64,000 nt of DNA, taken from contig CAIXRH010000084.1 of assembly GCA_903921785.1 (NCBI GenBank), positions 1 to 64,000 on the forward strand, read 5' to 3'. Source of the stretch: an uncultured Pseudomonadota bacterium (GTDB lineage: Bacteria > Myxococcota_A > UBA796 > SXON01). Position numbers and translations under genes: made by a program. The notes beneath the pieces are model-generated. The model was not told the origin of the DNA and did no database searches. It worked only from the letters and a program-made list of their open reading frames with translations. Below are positions 20,254 to 28,751 of the stretch, piece by piece. Every line of letters begins with the position of its first letter. Position 1 is the first letter of the stretch.

Positions 20254-21084
20254 GTGCCCGTCGTCCGCCTCGTGCCCACCCTGTCTCGCCCGCCATGGGG
20301 GGGCTTTCGCCTTGGTGCCGAGCTCGGCAAGGGGGAGGGGAGTATCGGCGAGTCTTGGGAAGTGTGGCGGGAGAATAGGGTGATCGGAGACTCGGCGCGC
20401 CTCGGCGATCGGGTGGACTTCCCGCTCCTCGTGAAGTTGCTCGACACCCGGGCCCTGCTCTCGGTGCAGGTGCATCCCGCCGACGTGGACGCTCGGCTTC
20501 GTGCAGGCGCCCCCCACGGAAAGGCGGAGGCCTGGGTGGTGCTCGCTGCCGAGCCCGGCGCTCGCATCGCATACGGGCTCTCCCGGGAGCTCACCGAAGC
20601 GGAGCTCCGTGAACGAGCCGGCTCGGGGGCGATCGAGGCGGATCTGGCCTGGATCGAGCCCCAGCCCGGCGACGTAATCGACGTGCCGCCAGGCACGATC
20701 CACGCCATCGGGCCGGGCCTGCTGCTGTACGAGGTGCAGGAGCCGATCGACCTGACCTGGCGCCTGTACGACTGGGGCCGGGGTCGCGAGCTCCATCTCG
20801 ACCACGCGTGCGCCGTGGCCATCCGCGCCCCCCAGCCGTCCCCGTACCGGGCGTCGGTCGCGGTGGCGCCGGGCATCGATCGGCTCTTGGAGACCCGTCA
20901 CTTCGTGGTGGATCGGGTCCAACTCCCGGCGCGACGGCGGGGCTGGGAGGCGATCACCGTGATCGAGGGCAGCGCCCACGTGGAAGGGCACACGGTGCCG
21001 CGCGGAGGCACCGTATTGGTGCCTCCCGAGGGCGCGCTTCTCGAGGGGGAGGGGGTGGTGCTGGCGGCGCGTCCCGGCGCCTAG
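20254..21084 (+). CDS. manA: mannose-6-phosphate isomerase, type I
   Basis: Interconverts fructose-6-phosphate and mannose-6-phosphate, supplying mannose for surface polysaccharides. The 276-residue length is that of the short type I enzymes. Metal and substrate motifs are clear: LLSVQVHPADVDA (Gln and His ligands), HGKAEAWVVL (Glu ligand), PPGTIHAIG (His ligand) and the following YEVQEPIDLTWRLYDWGR. GTG start at 20254 follows GGGGAGGGGG closely. Its TAG stop shares bases with the convergent regulator's TAG inside a CTAG palindrome, leaving no intergenic DNA between them. Confidence 0.92.
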   Translation: MPVVRLVPTLSRPPWGGFRLGAELGKGEGSIGESWEVWRENRVIGDSARLGDRVDFPLLVKLLDTRALLSVQVHPADVDARLRAGAPHGKAEAWVVLAAEPGARIAYGLSRELTEAELRERAGSGAIEADLAWIEPQPGDVIDVPPGTIHAIGPGLLLYEVQEPIDLTWRLYDWGRGRELHLDHACAVAIRAPQPSPYRASVAVAPGIDRLLETRHFVVDRVQLPARRRGWEAITVIEGSAHVEGHTVPRGGTVLVPPEGALLEGEGVVLAARPGA

Positions 21085-21524
21085 GACGCCGCGAGATCGG
21101 CGAGGCTGGTCTCGGCAACGAGGGTGCGGAGGCCGGCGGACGCGGCGGTCCATGCGTGGTGCAGCGCGCATGGCGCATCGGGAGTGCACGGGCGCGCGCC
21201 CATGGTGCAAGGCGGCTTTCCCCCAGCGCTGTCGGCGGTTGGAAAGTGTCCGATCACCTGGGCGATGGTGATCCGCGCCGCGGTTCGGGCGAGTCGGTAT
21301 CCCCCGTAGTGGCCCTTTTTGCCCTCCACGATCCCCGCGGCGACGAGGGTGGTGAGCAGCTTCGCAAGAAACGGGGCAGGGGCGTGGGCCTCCGCCGCGA
21401 GGTCCGCCAGGGGGACAAACGACTCTCTCGGGTGGCGAGCCAGGGTTGCGCAGCCGGAGAGCGCATAACGCTGGGCCAACGTGAGGGTCGCGACGCAGGC
21501 GGTGACGGAGGAGGAACGCGACAT
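21081..21524 (-). CDS. Rrf2-family regulator with Fe-S (IscR/NsrR-like) cysteines
   Basis: 147-residue winged-helix regulator. TLAQRYALSGCATLARHP gives the N-terminal helix, LADLAAEAHAPAPFLAKLLTTLVAAGIVEGKKGHYGGYRLAR the recognition helix and wing, both strongly Rrf2-like. Near residues 105-121 three Cys are spaced C-x6-C-x5-C with a His three residues after the last, close to the IscR/NsrR cluster ligands (C-x5-C-x5-C or C-x4-C-x5-C). Rrf2 proteins with such clusters sense nitric oxide or iron-sulfur status. It is divergent from the nos operon, so I infer it is a nitrogen-oxide-responsive regulator of that operon. Start ATG at 21524 has GGAAG upstream. Confidence 0.85.
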   Translation of the reverse strand: MSRSSSVTACVATLTLAQRYALSGCATLARHPRESFVPLADLAAEAHAPAPFLAKLLTTLVAAGIVEGKKGHYGGYRLARTAARITIAQVIGHFPTADSAGGKPPCTMGARPCTPDAPCALHHAWTAASAGLRTLVAETSLADLAAS

Positions 21525-21605
21525 GTTTCTTCCGGCATGCAAGCGGCGGGCCACGCGCGCGCCGCGGGGGAAGGGCAGCGATCGCCCAGTCGTGGATCGG
21601 GCCGT

Positions 21606-21636
21606 GCCATTTATCACAGGCGGGGCGTGAAATGGC
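21606..21636. promoter_or_regulatory. inverted repeat upstream of the nosZ promoter
   Basis: Perfect 7-bp arms GCCATTT (21606-21612) and AAATGGC (21630-21636) around 17 nt, centred about 82 bp upstream of the sigma-54 core. The position suits an upstream activator site for a sigma-54 enhancer-binding protein or the Rrf2 operator. Which protein binds cannot be told from the sequence. Confidence 0.4.
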
Positions 21637-21702
21637 CCAACCATCACACCACTAAACGACCGCGTAATCGCTTGATAGTGAAAAAATGTAGGAATGACGC
21701 TG

Positions 21703-21718
21703 TGGCATGCCCCTTGCA
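21703..21718 (+). promoter_or_regulatory. sigma-54 (-24/-12) promoter of the nos operon
   Basis: TGGCATGCCCCTTGCA matches the sigma-54 consensus TGGCAC-N5-TTGCA at 15 of 16 positions that matter, with GG and GC exactly 10 nt apart. Predicted transcription starts near 21729, 16 nt before the nosZ ATG at 21745, which excludes the longer upstream reading of nosZ. Confidence 0.82.
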
Positions 21719-21744
21719 TTGACGCCGAGCCACCCGAGGTTCTC

Positions 21745-23697
21745 ATGCTGGCGCCTTCCCTCCTCCTCCTCCTCGCTTCCTGCCAGAACGGGGAGGCACC
21801 CCCTCCCGCCGCGACGTCGAGTGGCGGCGGGGGCGACCTCGCGGCGGTGATGGCCGAGCGCGGCCTCACCGAGGACGACGTGCTCGCGGCCGCCAAGACC
21901 TACGCCCCCTCCGGCAAGCTCGACGACTACGTGATCTTCGCCTCCGGCGGCCACGGCGGGAACATCATCGTGATCGGCGTGCCGAGCATGCGGATTCTCA
22001 AGTACATCAGCGTCTTCGGACCGGAGCCCTGGCAGGGCTACGGCTACGGCGGCTTGAGCGACGACGTGCTCTACACCCAGGGCGCGCAGGGTGGCAAGGA
22101 GATCTCCTGGGGCGACGTGCATCACCCCAACCTCTCCGAGACCGCCGGGGACTACGACGGCAACTTCCTGTTCGTGAACGACAAGGCCAATGCCCGCGTG
22201 GCCGTCGTCGACCTCAAGGACATGATGACCAAGCAGATCGTCGCCAACCCCTTGGTGATGTCCGACCACGGCGGGGCGTTCGTCACGCCGAACACGGACT
22301 ACGTGGTGGAGACGAGCCAGTACGCGGCCCCGCTCGGGAACGAGTACGCCACGATCGACAAGTACCAGACCGACTACCGCGGCGCGGCGGTGTTCTGGAA
22401 GTTCGACAAGACCAAGGGGCGGATCGACGAGGCGGCGAGCTGGGCCGTGGAGCTTCCTCCGTACGCCCAGGACCTCGCGGACGCCGGCAAGCTCGGCAGC
22501 GACGGCTTCGTGTACATCAACTCCTGGGACACCGAGATGTCCGCGGGCAGTGAAGGCAAGGGCAAGCCGTTCATGGAGTCCGGCGCGAGCCAGAACGACA
22601 TGGACTACCTCCACATCATCGACTGGAAGAAGGGCGAGGCCCTGGTGGCGGCCGGCAAGACCAAGGTGATCAAGGGCATGCGGGTGATCCCGCTGGACGT
22701 GGCCGCGGCCGAACACGTGCTGACGTTCGTCGGAGAGCCGAAGAGCCCCCACGGCTGCGACGTGACACCGGATGGTTCGGCGGTGGTGGTCGGCGGCAAG
22801 CTCGACACCCACACCACGCTCTACGACACCGCGAAGATGAAGGACCTCATCGCCAAGGGCCAGTTCACCGGGAAGGACCCGTACGGCGTGGACATCCTCG
22901 ACTTCCAGTCGGCGATCCGTGGCCAGAAGGAGATCGGCCTCGGCCCGCTCCATACCGTGTACGACGACAAGGGCTACGCGTACACCTCGGTGTTCCTCGA
23001 CAGCACCGTGGTGAAGTGGAACTACAAGAACCTGGACGAGCCGACCGAGTCGCTCGGCGTGCAGTACAACATCGGCCACATCACGGCCGCAGAGGGTGAC
23101 ACGGTGTCGCCGGACGGACACTACGTGGTTGCGATGAACAAGATGTCGCAGGACCGGTTCACCAACATGGGGCCGCTCCTGCCGCAGAACTTCCAGCTCA
23201 TCGACACCAGCGGGCCGACCATGAAGGTGATCGCCGACATGCCGATCGGCCTCGGCGAGCCGCACTACGCCCAGATGATCAAGGCCGACAAGCTCCACAC
23301 CATCACCGCCTACACGCCTCCGGGCATCAACCCGTACACCGACCAGAAGTCGGAGTTCGCGGTGGCCTCCGGCGAGGAGCGCATCGTCCGCAACGGCAAG
23401 AAGGTGGACGTGTACATGAGCGTGATCCGCTCCCACTTCACCCCGGACAACATCGAGGTGAACCAGGGCGACGAGGTGACCATCCATCTCACCTCCTTGG
23501 AGCAGGCGCTCGACCAGACGCACGGTTTTGCGGTGGACATGTACAACATCAACGTCTCCATGGAGCCGGGGAAGTACGAGGAGATCACCTTCAAGGCCGA
23601 TCGTGCCGGTGTGTTCCCCTTCTACTGCACGGAGTTCTGCTCGGCGCTGCACCTCGAGATGATGGGCTACCTCCTCGTGAAGCCCGAAGGAGCCTGA
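21745..23697 (+). CDS. nosZ: nitrous oxide reductase, clade II, predicted lipoprotein
   Basis: Reduces N2O to N2 in the periplasm. The 650-residue protein has the seven-bladed propeller with CuZ His ligands in order: DVHHPNLSET, DHGGAFVTPN, SPHGCDVTPDG, LGPLHTVYDD, IGHITAAEGD and LGEPHYAQM. A C-terminal cupredoxin follows, with CuA motif CTEFCSALHLEM near 632. There is no Tat twin-Arg motif; instead a Sec-type, lipobox-ended leader (SLLLLLASC) predicts a lipid-anchored enzyme. Sec export and the downstream cytochrome/NosB-like genes place it in clade II, known from Anaeromyxobacter and other non-classical denitrifiers. Start set by the sigma-54 promoter and a GAGG site. Confidence 0.97.
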   Translation: MLAPSLLLLLASCQNGEAPPPAATSSGGGGDLAAVMAERGLTEDDVLAAAKTYAPSGKLDDYVIFASGGHGGNIIVIGVPSMRILKYISVFGPEPWQGYGYGGLSDDVLYTQGAQGGKEISWGDVHHPNLSETAGDYDGNFLFVNDKANARVAVVDLKDMMTKQIVANPLVMSDHGGAFVTPNTDYVVETSQYAAPLGNEYATIDKYQTDYRGAAVFWKFDKTKGRIDEAASWAVELPPYAQDLADAGKLGSDGFVYINSWDTEMSAGSEGKGKPFMESGASQNDMDYLHIIDWKKGEALVAAGKTKVIKGMRVIPLDVAAAEHVLTFVGEPKSPHGCDVTPDGSAVVVGGKLDTHTTLYDTAKMKDLIAKGQFTGKDPYGVDILDFQSAIRGQKEIGLGPLHTVYDDKGYAYTSVFLDSTVVKWNYKNLDEPTESLGVQYNIGHITAAEGDTVSPDGHYVVAMNKMSQDRFTNMGPLLPQNFQLIDTSGPTMKVIADMPIGLGEPHYAQMIKADKLHTITAYTPPGINPYTDQKSEFAVASGEERIVRNGKKVDVYMSVIRSHFTPDNIEVNQGDEVTIHLTSLEQALDQTHGFAVDMYNINVSMEPGKYEEITFKADRAGVFPFYCTEFCSALHLEMMGYLLVKPEGA

Positions 23698-23698
23698 G

Positions 23699-24148
23699 AT
23701 GTTCACCTTCGTTCTCGCCTTCACTGTCGCCTGCTCGTCGGGCCCTGCGCCGGCCCCGTCCACGGGGGCCGCCCCCAAGGTGGCGGCCCCCGTGGCCGCG
23801 GTTGTCGTCGGTCCCGAGGGGCCCACGAAGATCGCCATCCCGGCGATCGACGCGGTGTCCACCGATCCTGCGGTGGTGACGGCGGGGACGAAGGTGTTCA
23901 CCGATCGTGGGTGCGGCGGCTGCCACAAGTTCGGCGAAAAACTGGTGGGTCCCGATCTCAAGGGCGTGTTCAGCCGCCGGCAGATCCCCTGGGTCGAGCG
24001 CATGATCACGGACCCGGCCGTGATGGTGAAGGAGGATCCGCAGGCCAAGGAATTGTTCCGCTCGCTCATGGTGGAGATGCCGAAGCAGGGTGTGCCGCCC
24101 GAAGACCTGCCGGCGCTGCTCGCGTATCTGAAGTCGCAGGGGGGCTGA
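23699..24148 (+). CDS. lipoprotein monohaem cytochrome c, nos-associated
   Basis: 149 residues. The signal FTVAC gives a lipobox, a Pro/Ala-rich tether runs to about residue 55, then a class I cytochrome c domain with haem motif GCGGCHKFG (Cys-x2-Cys-His, near 73-77) and a likely axial Met in MVEMPKQGVPPEDLPALLAYLK. It begins 1 nt after the nosZ stop. Clade II nos clusters typically encode one or two such cytochromes (NosC) that carry electrons from the quinol pool to NosZ, and a lipid anchor on both partners would keep them on the same membrane face. Confidence 0.88.
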   Translation: MFTFVLAFTVACSSGPAPAPSTGAAPKVAAPVAAVVVGPEGPTKIAIPAIDAVSTDPAVVTAGTKVFTDRGCGGCHKFGEKLVGPDLKGVFSRRQIPWVERMITDPAVMVKEDPQAKELFRSLMVEMPKQGVPPEDLPALLAYLKSQGG

Positions 24149-24149
24149 G

Positions 24150-24815
24150 GTGTCCGGGTCCATCGCGGAGAAGATCCGCGCGTTCGAGCGGGGGCGCCGT
24201 CGGGCCGTGGTGCTCCTCGGCGTGCTCGCCGCCGCCTGTTTCGTTGCCTCGTTCTTCCTGCCCTGGTGGAACTTCCAGCTCTTCGCGCCGCAGTACCCGA
24301 AGGGGCTGACCCTGGTCATCCACCTCACCGGTGTGGAGGGCGATGCGGCGGAGATCGACACCATCAACCACTACATCGGGATGCACTCGCTGGCGGACAG
24401 CGCGCTCCTGGAGCGGGCGGCCAGCCACTGGATCGTCGGCGCCACCGCCGGGCTCGTCGTGGCCGCGGTGCTCCTCGCTGGCCGGAAGCTCAACTGGCTC
24501 GGCCTGGCGATCGGGATGGGGCTGCCCCTGGGCTTCGTCGCGGACACGACGTATTGGATGTATCGCTCGGGTCATGATCTCGACAAGCGGGCGCCGATCC
24601 ACCTCAAGCCCTTCATGCCCGCGGTGATCGGCGATGGGAAGGTCGGGCAGTTCCTCACCCAGGCGTGGCCGGCTTGGGGCTTCTGGCTCGCGATCCTCGG
24701 GGTCGTCCTCCTCGGGGTCGCCACCTGGCAACGAAACCGGGTGTGTCGGGTGTGTCCGCGTCACGCCACGTGCGGAGCCCTGTGTCCGCACACGGTGCTC
24801 GGGAACCCGGCATGA
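24150..24815 (+). CDS. NosB-like integral membrane protein
   Basis: 221 residues with four predicted helices (about 18-38, 94-112, 116-134, 182-202). The GTG start lies 1 nt after the cytochrome stop. A conserved-looking periplasmic segment INHYIGMHSL follows helix 1. The C-terminus carries four Cys, CRVCPRHATCGALC, which could bind a metal or cluster. Position between nosZ/cytochrome and nosD matches the NosB membrane protein of clade II clusters, but NosB is poorly conserved and its role is unknown, so the family assignment is inference. Stop overlaps the nosD start as ATGA. Confidence 0.6.
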   Translation: MSGSIAEKIRAFERGRRRAVVLLGVLAAACFVASFFLPWWNFQLFAPQYPKGLTLVIHLTGVEGDAAEIDTINHYIGMHSLADSALLERAASHWIVGATAGLVVAAVLLAGRKLNWLGLAIGMGLPLGFVADTTYWMYRSGHDLDKRAPIHLKPFMPAVIGDGKVGQFLTQAWPAWGFWLAILGVVLLGVATWQRNRVCRVCPRHATCGALCPHTVLGNPA

Positions 24816-26098
24816 TCCTCCTGGCCCTCACCCTGGTCCTCGCCGACGATCACGACGCTCCCGCCGTGGCGCCGGTGGTCCTGGCGGGGAGCGCGCCGAT
24901 CCCGGTGGGGCCGCCCCGCACCGTGGAGGTGGCGCCAGGGCAGGATGTCAACGCCGTCATCGCGACCTTGCCGGCGGGGAGCACCGTGGTGCTCCTCCCG
25001 GGTGACCACGCGGGTCCGCTCCGCGTGGACCGTCCGCTCACCGTGACGGGGCCGGCCCGGGTGGTCGGCCCGGGGCACGGCTCGGTGGTGCTCGTGGGCG
25101 CCTCGGACGTGACCCTCCGCGACCTTGAGATCACCGGCAGCGGTCTGGACGCCACCGCGGGCGATGCCGGCGTGGTCGTGAGCGGTGACCGCTTCACCCT
25201 CGACGGCTTGCGCGTCGTCCATACGTTTCTCGGTGTCGATCTTCGCCAGTCGAGCCACGGGACGGTGCGTGGCTGCGACATCGTCGGTCGGGAGGACGGC
25301 CCCATCGGGACCCATGGCGACGGCATCCGCCTCTGGGAGTCTGACGGCAACCAGGTGGTGGGCAACCACCTGGAGCACGTTCGCGACATGGTCGCCTGGT
25401 ACAGCGAAGACAACACCTTCGCCGAGAACCACGTGGAGCATTCCCGGTACGGGCTCCACCTCATGCACGCGGAAGGGAGTCGGATCCACGGCAATCGTTT
25501 CGAGCACGACGTGGTCGGCATGTTCGTGATGTACAGCCGCGACGTGGAGATCGTGGACAACCTGGTGGTGTCCTCCGACGGGCCCGCGGGGATGGGGATC
25601 GGGCTGAAGGAGAGCGACGGGTTGACCGTCACCGGCAATCGCCTGCTCGCCTCCACGGTGGGAATCTACCTTGACAGCAGTCCGAACCGTCCCGACAGCT
25701 ACGCGCGGTTCTCGGGCAATCTGCTGGCTTATGACCACACCGGCCTCCGCTTCCACAGCCCGCGCGAGGGTGCGAGCTTTGAGGCAAACGACCTCCACGA
25801 GAACGCGCGCGGCGTGATCGTCGATGGGGGTGGGCAGGCGGGGTCCGTCCATTTCAGCGGCAACCGCTGGAGCGACTACACCGGCTACGATCTCGGCGGC
25901 GACGGGGTGGGCGACGTGCCCTACGCACCACGCTCTTTGGCGAGAAGCGTGGTCGATCACCATCCCGTCGCTGCTTTCTTCGATGGCACGCCCGCCGCGG
26001 CGCTGCTCGATCTGCTGGCGGCGGCCTTCCCGATGTGGGCGCCGCCGCCGCTCGTTCACGATGACGCGCCCCGGATGGGGCGGCTGGCGGGAACATGA
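24812..26098 (+). CDS. nosD: NosD periplasmic beta-helix protein
   Basis: NosD is needed for assembly of the copper-sulfide CuZ site together with the NosFY ABC transporter. The 428 residues begin with a short signal (MILLALTLVLA then DDHD). They then form a right-handed parallel beta-helix of repeated N-x-(V/I)-x-G-N turns (GNQVVGNHLEHV, GSRIHGNRFEHD, GLTVTGNRLLAS), ending with the family segment GNRWSDYTGYDLGGDGVGDVPY. ATG at 24812 overlaps the previous stop; the nosF start overlaps its own stop. Confidence 0.93.
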   Translation: MILLALTLVLADDHDAPAVAPVVLAGSAPIPVGPPRTVEVAPGQDVNAVIATLPAGSTVVLLPGDHAGPLRVDRPLTVTGPARVVGPGHGSVVLVGASDVTLRDLEITGSGLDATAGDAGVVVSGDRFTLDGLRVVHTFLGVDLRQSSHGTVRGCDIVGREDGPIGTHGDGIRLWESDGNQVVGNHLEHVRDMVAWYSEDNTFAENHVEHSRYGLHLMHAEGSRIHGNRFEHDVVGMFVMYSRDVEIVDNLVVSSDGPAGMGIGLKESDGLTVTGNRLLASTVGIYLDSSPNRPDSYARFSGNLLAYDHTGLRFHSPREGASFEANDLHENARGVIVDGGGQAGSVHFSGNRWSDYTGYDLGGDGVGDVPYAPRSLARSVVDHHPVAAFFDGTPAAALLDLLAAAFPMWAPPPLVHDDAPRMGRLAGT

Positions 26099-26820
26099 AC
26101 GTCGCGATTGAACTGCGTGATCTGCGAAAGGACTACGACGGCCGGGCCGTGCTTCGGGGGATCAGCCTCACGGTGCAGCCCGGTGAACGCGTGGCCCTCG
26201 TCGGCCCTAACGGTTCTGGTAAGACGACGCTTCTGCGCGCTGTGTTGGGCTTCGTGCGGGCCGAAGGCTGGGTGCGGGTGGACGACCACGATCCGTGGCG
26301 GGACCACGCGGCCGCGATGCGCTCGGTGGCCTACGTGCCGCAGCGTGCGCCGGCGCTCCCCGCGCCCGTCGGCGAGCTCGTCACCGCCTGGGCGCAGCTC
26401 CGCGGCGCGCCTCGCACCGCCTTGGAGTCGGCCGCCCGTTCGTTCGGACTGGACGTGCACGCCTTGGGCGGGGTCCGATTCTCGGCGTTGTCGGGTGGGA
26501 TGCAGCAAAAGCTCCTCGCGGCGATGGCGCTGGCCAGCGCAGCCCCGATCCTCTGCTTCGACGAGCCCACCGCGAACCTGGATCCCGAAGCGCGGGCGGT
26601 CTTCTTGGACGCGCTCATGGCACGTGCTCCGCGCCCGACGATCCTCCTCTCTTCCCACCGGATGGAGGAGCTCAGGGACCTCGTGGACCGCGTCGTGGTG
26701 CTCGCGGACGGGGAGGTGCGCTTCGACGGGCGGCTCGACAGCTTCCTCGCCGAGCCCGGCCTCGCCGGAGCTTCCGGGGTGGCCCGCGGTGCCCTCCTCC
26801 CGTTCCGGAGTCCGCAATGA
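26095..26820 (+). CDS. nosF: NosF ABC transporter ATP-binding protein
   Basis: Cytoplasmic ATPase of the NosDFY maturation transporter. 241 residues: Walker [10 protein letters not shown] near 38-46, Q-loop [10 protein letters not shown], signature LSGGMQQK (the common Q after SGG is replaced by M), Walker [16 protein letters not shown], and the switch His in [10 protein letters not shown]. Overlaps nosD and nosL by 4 nt each, so subunits are made in a coupled way. Confidence 0.95.
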
Positions 26821-27194
26821 TGTTTGCCTTCCTCCTCGCCTGCACACGAGACCCGAGCGCTCCGCCCACGGTGAACTACGATCTCGACGCGTGCACCGAC
26901 TGCGGCATGCTGGTGAGCGATCCGGCCTACGCCGCGGCGCTCGTGACCAAGGACGGGAAGACGCTGGTCTTCGATGACCCAGGGTGCCTGTTTCACTACA
27001 TGGTCACCCAGGCGCCGGCGGTGAGCGCGATGTGGTTCCACGACGCCGCGGACGATCGTTGGCTTCGGGAGGACGCCGTCGCGTTCGACCCCACCGGGCA
27101 CTCGCCGATGGGGAGCGGGCTTCGGCCGGTCCTCGCCGGTACTCCCGGTGCCCTGACGGTCGGCGAGGCTTCTTCGAAGGCGGTGTCCCCATGA
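26817..27194 (+). CDS. nosL: NosL copper-binding lipoprotein
   Basis: 125-residue outer-membrane lipoprotein that in known systems delivers Cu(I) to NosZ. Its signal peptide is only MMFAFLLAC. The NosL signature DACTDCGMLVSDPAYAA (Cys-x2-Cys-Gly-Met) and the FDDPGCLFHYM segment are intact. ATG at 26817 overlaps the nosF stop; a second ATG follows immediately at 26820. Its place between nosF and nosY, rather than after nosY, is a mild rearrangement of the usual DFYL order. Confidence 0.93.
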   Translation: MMFAFLLACTRDPSAPPTVNYDLDACTDCGMLVSDPAYAAALVTKDGKTLVFDDPGCLFHYMVTQAPAVSAMWFHDAADDRWLREDAVAFDPTGHSPMGSGLRPVLAGTPGALTVGEASSKAVSP

Positions 27195-28012
27195 ACTTCG
27201 CGCTCGCCCGCCTCGAGGCCCGCTCGGTCATCCGGGCGCGGTGGTTCTTCGCGTCGATCGTCCTCTCGGCGTTGCTGGTCGGGTTCTTCCTGGTCGTGGC
27301 CGCCCGGGAGAGCTCGGTTCTGGGGTTCACCGGCTTTGGCAAGGTGATGGCGGGCGTGGTGCAGGCGTCGCTGCTGCTCGTGCCGCTCTTGGCGCTGGCC
27401 AGCACGGCGCAGGCGGTCACCGCCGCACGCCAGGCGGGCGTGCTCGAGTGGTACATGTCGCAGCCGGTGAGCCGCAATGCCTGCTTCGGCGCGTTGTTCT
27501 TTCCTCGGCTCGCGGCGCTCGTGCTCCCGGTTGTGGTGAGCCTCCTCGGGCTCGCCGGGGCGGCGGCGGCCCTCGGTCAGCCGGTGCCCATCGGGCTCGT
27601 GCTCACGTTCCTCGGGGTGCTCGTCGGTCAGGCCCTGGCCTTCGGGGCCCTGGGGATGTGGGTGAGCACGCTCGCGCGCGCACCCGAGCAGGCGCTGCTC
27701 GGGGCCGTTGCGGTTTGGATGGGCGCCGCGATCCTCGTGGACTTCGTGCTCCTCGGCGTGCTCCTGCGCTGGGATCTGCCGCCGATGATGGTGTTCCTCC
27801 TCGCGGGCCTCAACCCGATGCAGGACGGGCGCATCGCCGTGCTCGCCGCGGTCGACCCGCAGCTGGGGGTCCTCGGTCCGGTCGGCACGTGGGCGGTGGC
27901 GACGCTCGGCGCGCCAGCGACGCTGGCGATCACGGTGGGTTGGCCCTTGGTGCTGGCCCTGGTGTTCAGCCTGCTCGCCCGACGGACGTTCGCGCGGCGG
28001 GACGTGCTGTAG
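27191..28012 (+). CDS. nosY: NosY ABC transporter membrane subunit
   Basis: 273 residues with six hydrophobic segments typical of ABC-2 permeases; TAARQAGVLEWYMSQPVSRNACFGALFF is the conserved region before helix 3 (family: G-x-LE-ll-sqPvsR). Pairs with NosF and interacts with NosD across the membrane. ATG overlaps the nosL stop as ATGA. Last gene of the operon; a hairpin follows at 28021. Confidence 0.93.
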   Translation: MNFALARLEARSVIRARWFFASIVLSALLVGFFLVVAARESSVLGFTGFGKVMAGVVQASLLLVPLLALASTAQAVTAARQAGVLEWYMSQPVSRNACFGALFFPRLAALVLPVVVSLLGLAGAAAALGQPVPIGLVLTFLGVLVGQALAFGALGMWVSTLARAPEQALLGAVAVWMGAAILVDFVLLGVLLRWDLPPMMVFLLAGLNPMQDGRIAVLAAVDPQLGVLGPVGTWAVATLGAPATLAITVGWPLVLALVFSLLARRTFARRDVL

Positions 28013-28166: not shown

Positions 28167-28724
28167 TTATTTCGCCGGGGGCAGCAGCACCTTGTCCACG
28201 ACGTGGACGACGCCGTTGACCGCGTGGATGGACGCGACGATGTGGGCATCGTCCACCATCACCGATCCGTCCGCGGCGACGTGGAGGGTGACCTTGGTGC
28301 CGTCGGCCATCGCCAGGGTCTGCCCGTCCTTCATGTCCTTGGTGTCCACGATCGGGACCGCGGCGTGGTGCTGCACGATCGACACGAGCTTCGTCTTGTT
28401 CTCCGGCTTGAGCAGGTCGTCGACCGTGCCGGGGGGCAGGGCGTCGAACGCCGCGTTGGTCGGAGCGAAGACGGTGTAGATGCCGCCCGGGCTGCCCAGG
28501 GCGTCGGCCTTGCCGGCGGCCTTCACGGCCGCGACGAGGGTGGTGTGGTCCGGGGAGCCGAGCGCGACGTCCAGCACGGTCTTCTCGGCGTCCGCCTTGG
28601 GCACGACGGGCTTGGGGGCGGGGGTGGCGGCGACCCCCTTCGGGGTGCTCGGCGCGGGGGCGGGCGCGGGCCCGGAGCAGGCGCAGAGCCAGAGAGGGAT
28701 CAGGACGGTGAGTCGGAGGAGCAT
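28167..28724 (-). CDS. fasciclin (FAS1) domain lipoprotein
   Basis: 185 residues. The ATG at 28724 has GAGG upstream and starts a lipobox signal (IPLWLCAC); a longer ATG at 28748 would precede the predicted transcription start and is rejected. An Ala/Pro/Lys tether leads to one complete FAS1 domain: TTLVAAVKAAGKADAL, YTVFAPTNAAFDALPPGTV (H1 box), LVSIVQHHAAVPIV and VVHVVDKVLLPP (H2 box). FAS1 domains mediate adhesion. It is convergent with the nos operon yet carries the same kind of sigma-54 promoter, hinting at co-regulation. Confidence 0.92.
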   Translation of the reverse strand: MLLRLTVLIPLWLCACSGPAPAPAPSTPKGVAATPAPKPVVPKADAEKTVLDVALGSPDHTTLVAAVKAAGKADALGSPGGIYTVFAPTNAAFDALPPGTVDDLLKPENKTKLVSIVQHHAAVPIVDTKDMKDGQTLAMADGTKVTLHVAADGSVMVDDAHIVASIHAVNGVVHVVDKVLLPPAK

Positions 28725-28751
28725 GCAGGCCTCAGGTGCGCGATACATCCA

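Follow-up and report, generated by a model that had tools for sequence, protein, structure and literature searches.

The nos operon in this DNA, which comes from an uncultured myxococcus-like lineage, is very probably, from nosZ through nosY, transcribed from a sigma-54 promoter whose -24/-12 element, TGGCATGCCCCTTGCA, occupies positions 21703 to 21718 on the + strand of the window, the window being the whole 64,000-nucleotide stretch that was analysed. The element fits TGGCAY-N5-TTGCW with zero mismatches, its GG at 21704-5 and its GC at 21716-17 lying 10 nt apart, as an earlier reading made from the sequence only (hereafter the sequence-only reading) had described. The distance to nosZ given there, 27 nt, had to be corrected, as the end of the element is separated from the nosZ ATG at 21745 by 26 nt. 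From the spacing of the element, transcription of nosZ is predicted to start at 21729. The canonical sigma-54 promoter is TGGCACG-N4-TTGCW, and the nosZ element matches it in its core, in the GG/GC spacing and in the G that follows TGGCAY. It differs from this canonical form by a T instead of a C at the sixth base, and by its target gene, as nosZ was not previously listed among those of -24/-12 promoters, as far as we found.

Seven genes on the + strand would be placed under this promoter. The first, nosZ (21745 to 23697), encodes a clade II (Sec-type) nitrous oxide reductase of 650 aa, with a score of 796 bits against TIGR04246 (cut-off 625). It is followed by a c-type cytochrome gene (23699 to 24148; PF00034, E 1.1e-8), a gene for a predicted membrane protein of 221 aa without Pfam or NCBIfam match (24150 to 24815), the maturation gene nosD (24812 to 26098; TIGR04247, 321 bits, cut-off 300), an ABC ATPase gene (26095 to 26820; PF00005, E 1e-24) named nosF by its position, a nosL-like lipoprotein gene (26820 to 27194), without NCBIfam match and assigned by its position and a CxxC motif, and a nosY-like ABC permease gene (27191 to 28012), also named by position. 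By inspection, the NosZ N-terminus is a lipoprotein-type signal, MLAPSLLLLLAS followed by C, with the lipobox LLAS ahead of that C. Lipobox-like N-termini were found in most NosZ relatives; their similarity, together with a GAGG upstream, backs the nosZ start at 21745. With NosZ and NosD over their cut-offs and a lipobox-type signal, both the clade II assignment of the operon and the lipobox proposed by the sequence-only reading were borne out. No nosR-like reading frame was recognised by inspection in 21000-28012.

As the TGGCAYN5TTGCW core has only 11 specified positions, and its reversed control pattern gave 3 perfect matches in the genome, the possibility of a chance match was weighed. A perfect match occurs a single time in the 64-kb window, at 21703-21718, and dinucleotide shuffling of the 220-nt nosZ intergenic region, repeated 3000 times, produced none on one strand. 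In the whole 7.48-Mb genome, 26 perfect sites were counted, against the 3 of the reversed pattern, and a start codon lies 21-36 nt downstream of 17 of them. This indicates that perfect matches are mostly promoters with short leaders, of which the nosZ site is typical. The genes that follow perfect sites include several lipoprotein genes and one Crp/Fnr regulator; another such site precedes, by 61 nt, the start of a type IV pilin gene, which is a usual kind of sigma-54 target. When one mismatch was allowed, no genome-wide enrichment was seen (157 sites versus 269 in the reversed control), so that weaker sites need backing from position and from conservation or repetition. The sigma-54 machinery is present: rpoN is found at one locus in the genome (PF04552, 207 bits, E 5e-61), and 24 full-length enhancer-binding proteins (bEBPs) are encoded, plus weaker matches.

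Conservation was then assessed in NosZ relatives collected from whole genomes and a contig collection. After orientation and removal of duplicates, 91 sequences remained, and the DNA preceding their start codons was searched. The close set comprised 13 sequences, the window's own included, whose NosZ is at least 73% identical, and the site was sought 15-70 nt before the ATG. All 13 had the element, 26-49 nt before the nosZ start, with no mismatch in 7, one in 5 and two in 1, and no reversed or complemented control was found in the same upstream stretch with up to 2 mismatches (0/13). When 12 of the 13 sequences were aligned on the element, its fixed columns were 87% identical, compared to 28-29% for the 100 nt upstream, which is the background level. 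The G after TGGCAY, which is outside the search pattern, was invariant in the 12 aligned relatives. Because of the shared ancestry of the related genomes, the 13 sequences do not count as independent cases, although similarity among them has fallen to background in the DNA flanking the element. A chance match is already contradicted by this conservation, at a near-constant distance to the start codon in DNA that is otherwise unalignable, and we consider it exceedingly improbable. Absence of the element from close relatives, which the sequence-only reading had named as evidence against the promoter when it suggested searching genomes with this nosZ, was looked for and not seen. The comparison lends good support to the sigma-54 nosZ promoter which that reading had put forward, and we regard 21703-21718 as a strong, well-supported candidate. 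In the same alignment, a C located 7 nt after the element, about -4 from the predicted start, is found in 12/12 sequences, in flanking DNA that is otherwise unconserved.

On the NosZ tree the element is clustered, its distribution needing 8 changes versus 22.8 in shuffles. Three element-bearing clades were distinguished: the window's own, one of Archangium-like genomes, and one of marine or sediment genomes, in which the form of the element is close to TGGCTTANTTATTGCA. In the window's own clade, only L040 and L097, whose NosZ are ~70% identical to that of the window, lack the element, and L035 has a weaker form.

An alternative is that the main nosZ promoter is a sigma-70 promoter under Crp/Fnr or Rrf2 control, the -24/-12 element being secondary, poised or blocking. 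Described nos operons are indeed under FNR/DNR/NnrR/FixK control (PMC1274295, PMC5582078, PMC11539149), a half FNR site, TTGAT, is present at about 21673, and an Rrf2 gene is divergent to nosZ, such genes being, according to PMC6264515, enriched in clade II nos scaffolds. However, no sigma-70-like hexamer pair was found in 21000-22000, the FNR box TTGAT-N4-ATCAA was not found upstream of nosZ with up to 1 mismatch, and the best FNR match there, 12 nt ahead of the nosZ ATG, deviates from the box at 2 positions. No block upstream of nosZ other than the -24/-12 element is strongly conserved, and we judge the sigma-70 alternative improbable. Among the relatives, an FNR box with up to 1 mismatch was found in 5 of the 59 lacking the sigma-54 element versus 1 of the 26 having it (control pattern, 0); these small numbers only hint that FNR-type and sigma-54 control replace each other.

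If transcription proceeds from the sigma-54 promoter, as we favour, the transcript would start near 21729, with a leader of about 16 nt holding only the ribosome-binding site. RpoN-RNA polymerase would wait at 21703-21718 in a closed complex, and a bEBP encoded elsewhere in the genome would bind upstream in the intergenic stretch, hydrolyse ATP and open the complex. Low oxygen or nitrogen oxides may be the trigger for this bEBP, and the divergent Rrf2 protein would probably add a redox or NO input.

The nos operons controlled by FixK2, NnrR, DNR or FNR share with this one the enzyme and the expected control by low oxygen; what sets this one apart is its -24/-12 element together with the lack of a good FNR box. 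The nos operons of Bradyrhizobium (PMC5582078) and Accumulibacter (PMC6446978) were tied to FNR/FixK-type boxes, inspection of the Bradyrhizobium nosR promoter gave no -24/-12 element (PMC5582078), and a Crp/Fnr regulator was linked to the Nitrosophilus nos operon by expression analysis (PMC11539149). The combination of a sigma-54 promoter with a bEBP has a parallel in nitrogen oxide metabolism, in the NorR systems. NorR regulons nevertheless concern NO detoxification, with nosZ under DNR-type FNR-like sites (PMC1274295), and the nosZ described here has no linked NorR gene. The clade II nos clusters of PMC6264515 resemble the present one in having nosZ with a cytochrome c gene, an Rrf2 neighbour and no nosR; we saw no promoter type described there, and a conserved sigma-54 element is added here. 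The sequence-only reading knew of no established sigma-54-dependent nosZ promoter, and we likewise found no report of one in the open-access literature, which is part of the whole. It is hence provisional to describe this as a familiar promoter type in front of a gene for which sigma-54 control is not known. The greenhouse gas N2O has its main known biological sink in NosZ, and little is known about clade II nosZ activation beyond a few model organisms. Under a sigma-54 promoter, nosZ would be switched on and off tightly at the expense of ATP, and the prediction is that these bacteria adjust N2O reduction to signals different from those of FNR-type systems. Control in uncultured N2O reducers could then be predicted from a simple sequence marker, the -24/-12 element.

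The divergent gene (21081 to 21524, - strand) encodes an Rrf2-family regulator of 147 aa (PF02082, 86 bits; TIGR00738, 89.8 bits, over cut-off). Among NCBIfam models this protein passes the superfamily model only, being below the equivalog cut-offs for IscR (53 of 207.6 bits) and NsrR (21 of 182 bits). Its three Cys, arranged as CX6CX5C, could hold an Fe-S cluster. A weaker -24/-12-like element with one mismatch, TGGCCCGCCGCTTGCA (21538 to 21553, - strand), faces rrf2; as one-mismatch sites are not enriched genome-wide, it is only suggestive of a promoter. A possible extension of our main reading, which we rate somewhat short of even, is that rrf2 and nosZ are both sigma-54 genes, with divergent promoters and one shared activator site. 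A one-mismatch element also faces a divergent rrf2 in the close relatives L037 and L038, ending in L038 27 nt before the likely TTG start of the gene, and an equally good one-strand site was found in 1.1% of shuffles. L037 and L038 are however near-copies and count as one further case, and in the window the element ends 13 nt before the annotated rrf2 ATG, which leaves almost no leader; the absence of genome-wide enrichment of such sites also weighs against divergent promoters.

The sequence-only reading had also pointed to a palindrome near the nosZ promoter, upstream of the element. The inverted repeat is present, with 7-bp arms GCCATTT (21606-21612) and AAATGGC (21630-21636) separated by 17 nt, but a role in control was not supported. 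Shuffling the intergenic region produced at least one repeat with 7-bp arms and a gap of up to 20 nt in 27% of cases, and the other 90 nosZ upstream regions all lacked the 21606-21636 repeat. It was rejected on these grounds as a conserved operator, and is probably due to chance or, at best, a lineage-specific activator site. An NsrR-type operator was also rejected, the 17-nt gap of this repeat being unlike the spacing known for NsrR operators.

For 11 relatives, the 180 nt preceding the element were searched for a shared activator site. Nothing above shuffles was found apart from a TGTG-N8-CACA dyad, a weak signal seen in 4 of the 11; 2 of 60 shuffle sets gave as many. The activator itself was sought by co-occurrence, three genus members with nosZ and three without it being compared for their bEBPs. 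No bEBP tracked nosZ among these six members: wherever a bEBP of this genome had orthologues in the nosZ+ trio, nosZ- members had them too, except for L064 and L079, whose orthologues were each found in G007 alone. The activator may therefore be among the bEBPs common to the whole genus. One bEBP of the genome (G000:C197:4711-7298; L062, L017, L018) has a PAS-like N-terminus with C-x5-C-x2-C-x3-C, and is encoded near two divergent perfect -24/-12 elements placed before a rhodanese-like gene and another gene.

In the Archangium-like genomes, which form a separate NosZ clade, a bEBP gene was found directly upstream of nosZ (L106, L109, L111, L114 and L124). The element lies there 34-46 nt before the nosZ ATG, with two mismatches in L106 and one in the four others, and a hemerythrin-like gene (weak Pfam matches, one just under cut-off) stands between the bEBP gene and nosZ in L106 and L111. 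Four conserved Cys are found in the short N-terminus of these nos-linked bEBPs, which may make them Fe-S or metal sensors. In L109 the bEBP is without the GAFTGA loop and, judging from this, may be inactive. In the window's own family, no match to this Cys4 nos-type bEBP was found at 1e-90.

The genome also contains norCBQD, named from the reading frames by inspection. Directly after norD lies a perfect -24/-12 element (G000:C74:8869-8884; L008, L257), and a Crp/Fnr gene follows 24 nt on. The orthologue of this Crp/Fnr gene in G002 (L260) has its own perfect element, about 15 nt before the likely ATG; no element was found for the orthologues of G005 and G017, where the gene appears to sit behind other genes. 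No NirK or NrfA match over cut-off was obtained in the genome, and the cytochrome d1 model gave one partial match of 30.7 bits, just over cut-off, leaving the presence of NirS doubtful. A far-reaching and rather unlikely generalisation would be that, in a broad part of Myxococcota, sigma-54 is the standing control of N2O respiration. In such a scheme nosZ would be fired by a bEBP, in one clade by the dedicated nos-linked Cys4 protein with a redox- or NO-sensing role, and the Crp/Fnr gene on the norCBQD side would be sigma-54-dependent, which would place sigma-54 above FNR-type control.

Some further features were observed around nosZ in the window and in its relatives. In L037 and L038 (and in L094 and L161), GTCGCA-N10-TGCGAC lies midway between the divergent rrf2 and nosZ -24/-12 elements. 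A conserved inverted repeat, TGCGTGCGGC-GAATT-GTCGCACGCA, was found about 150-170 nt before nosZ in the Polyangiaceae-like L042, L045 and L105, 86-110 nt before a weaker -24/-12-like site, and is a possible activator site. In the window, the nos cluster is closed by a gene for a fasciclin-domain lipoprotein (28167-28748, - strand), and in L042, L045 and L105 the end of a fasciclin-like protein is encoded directly upstream of nosZ.
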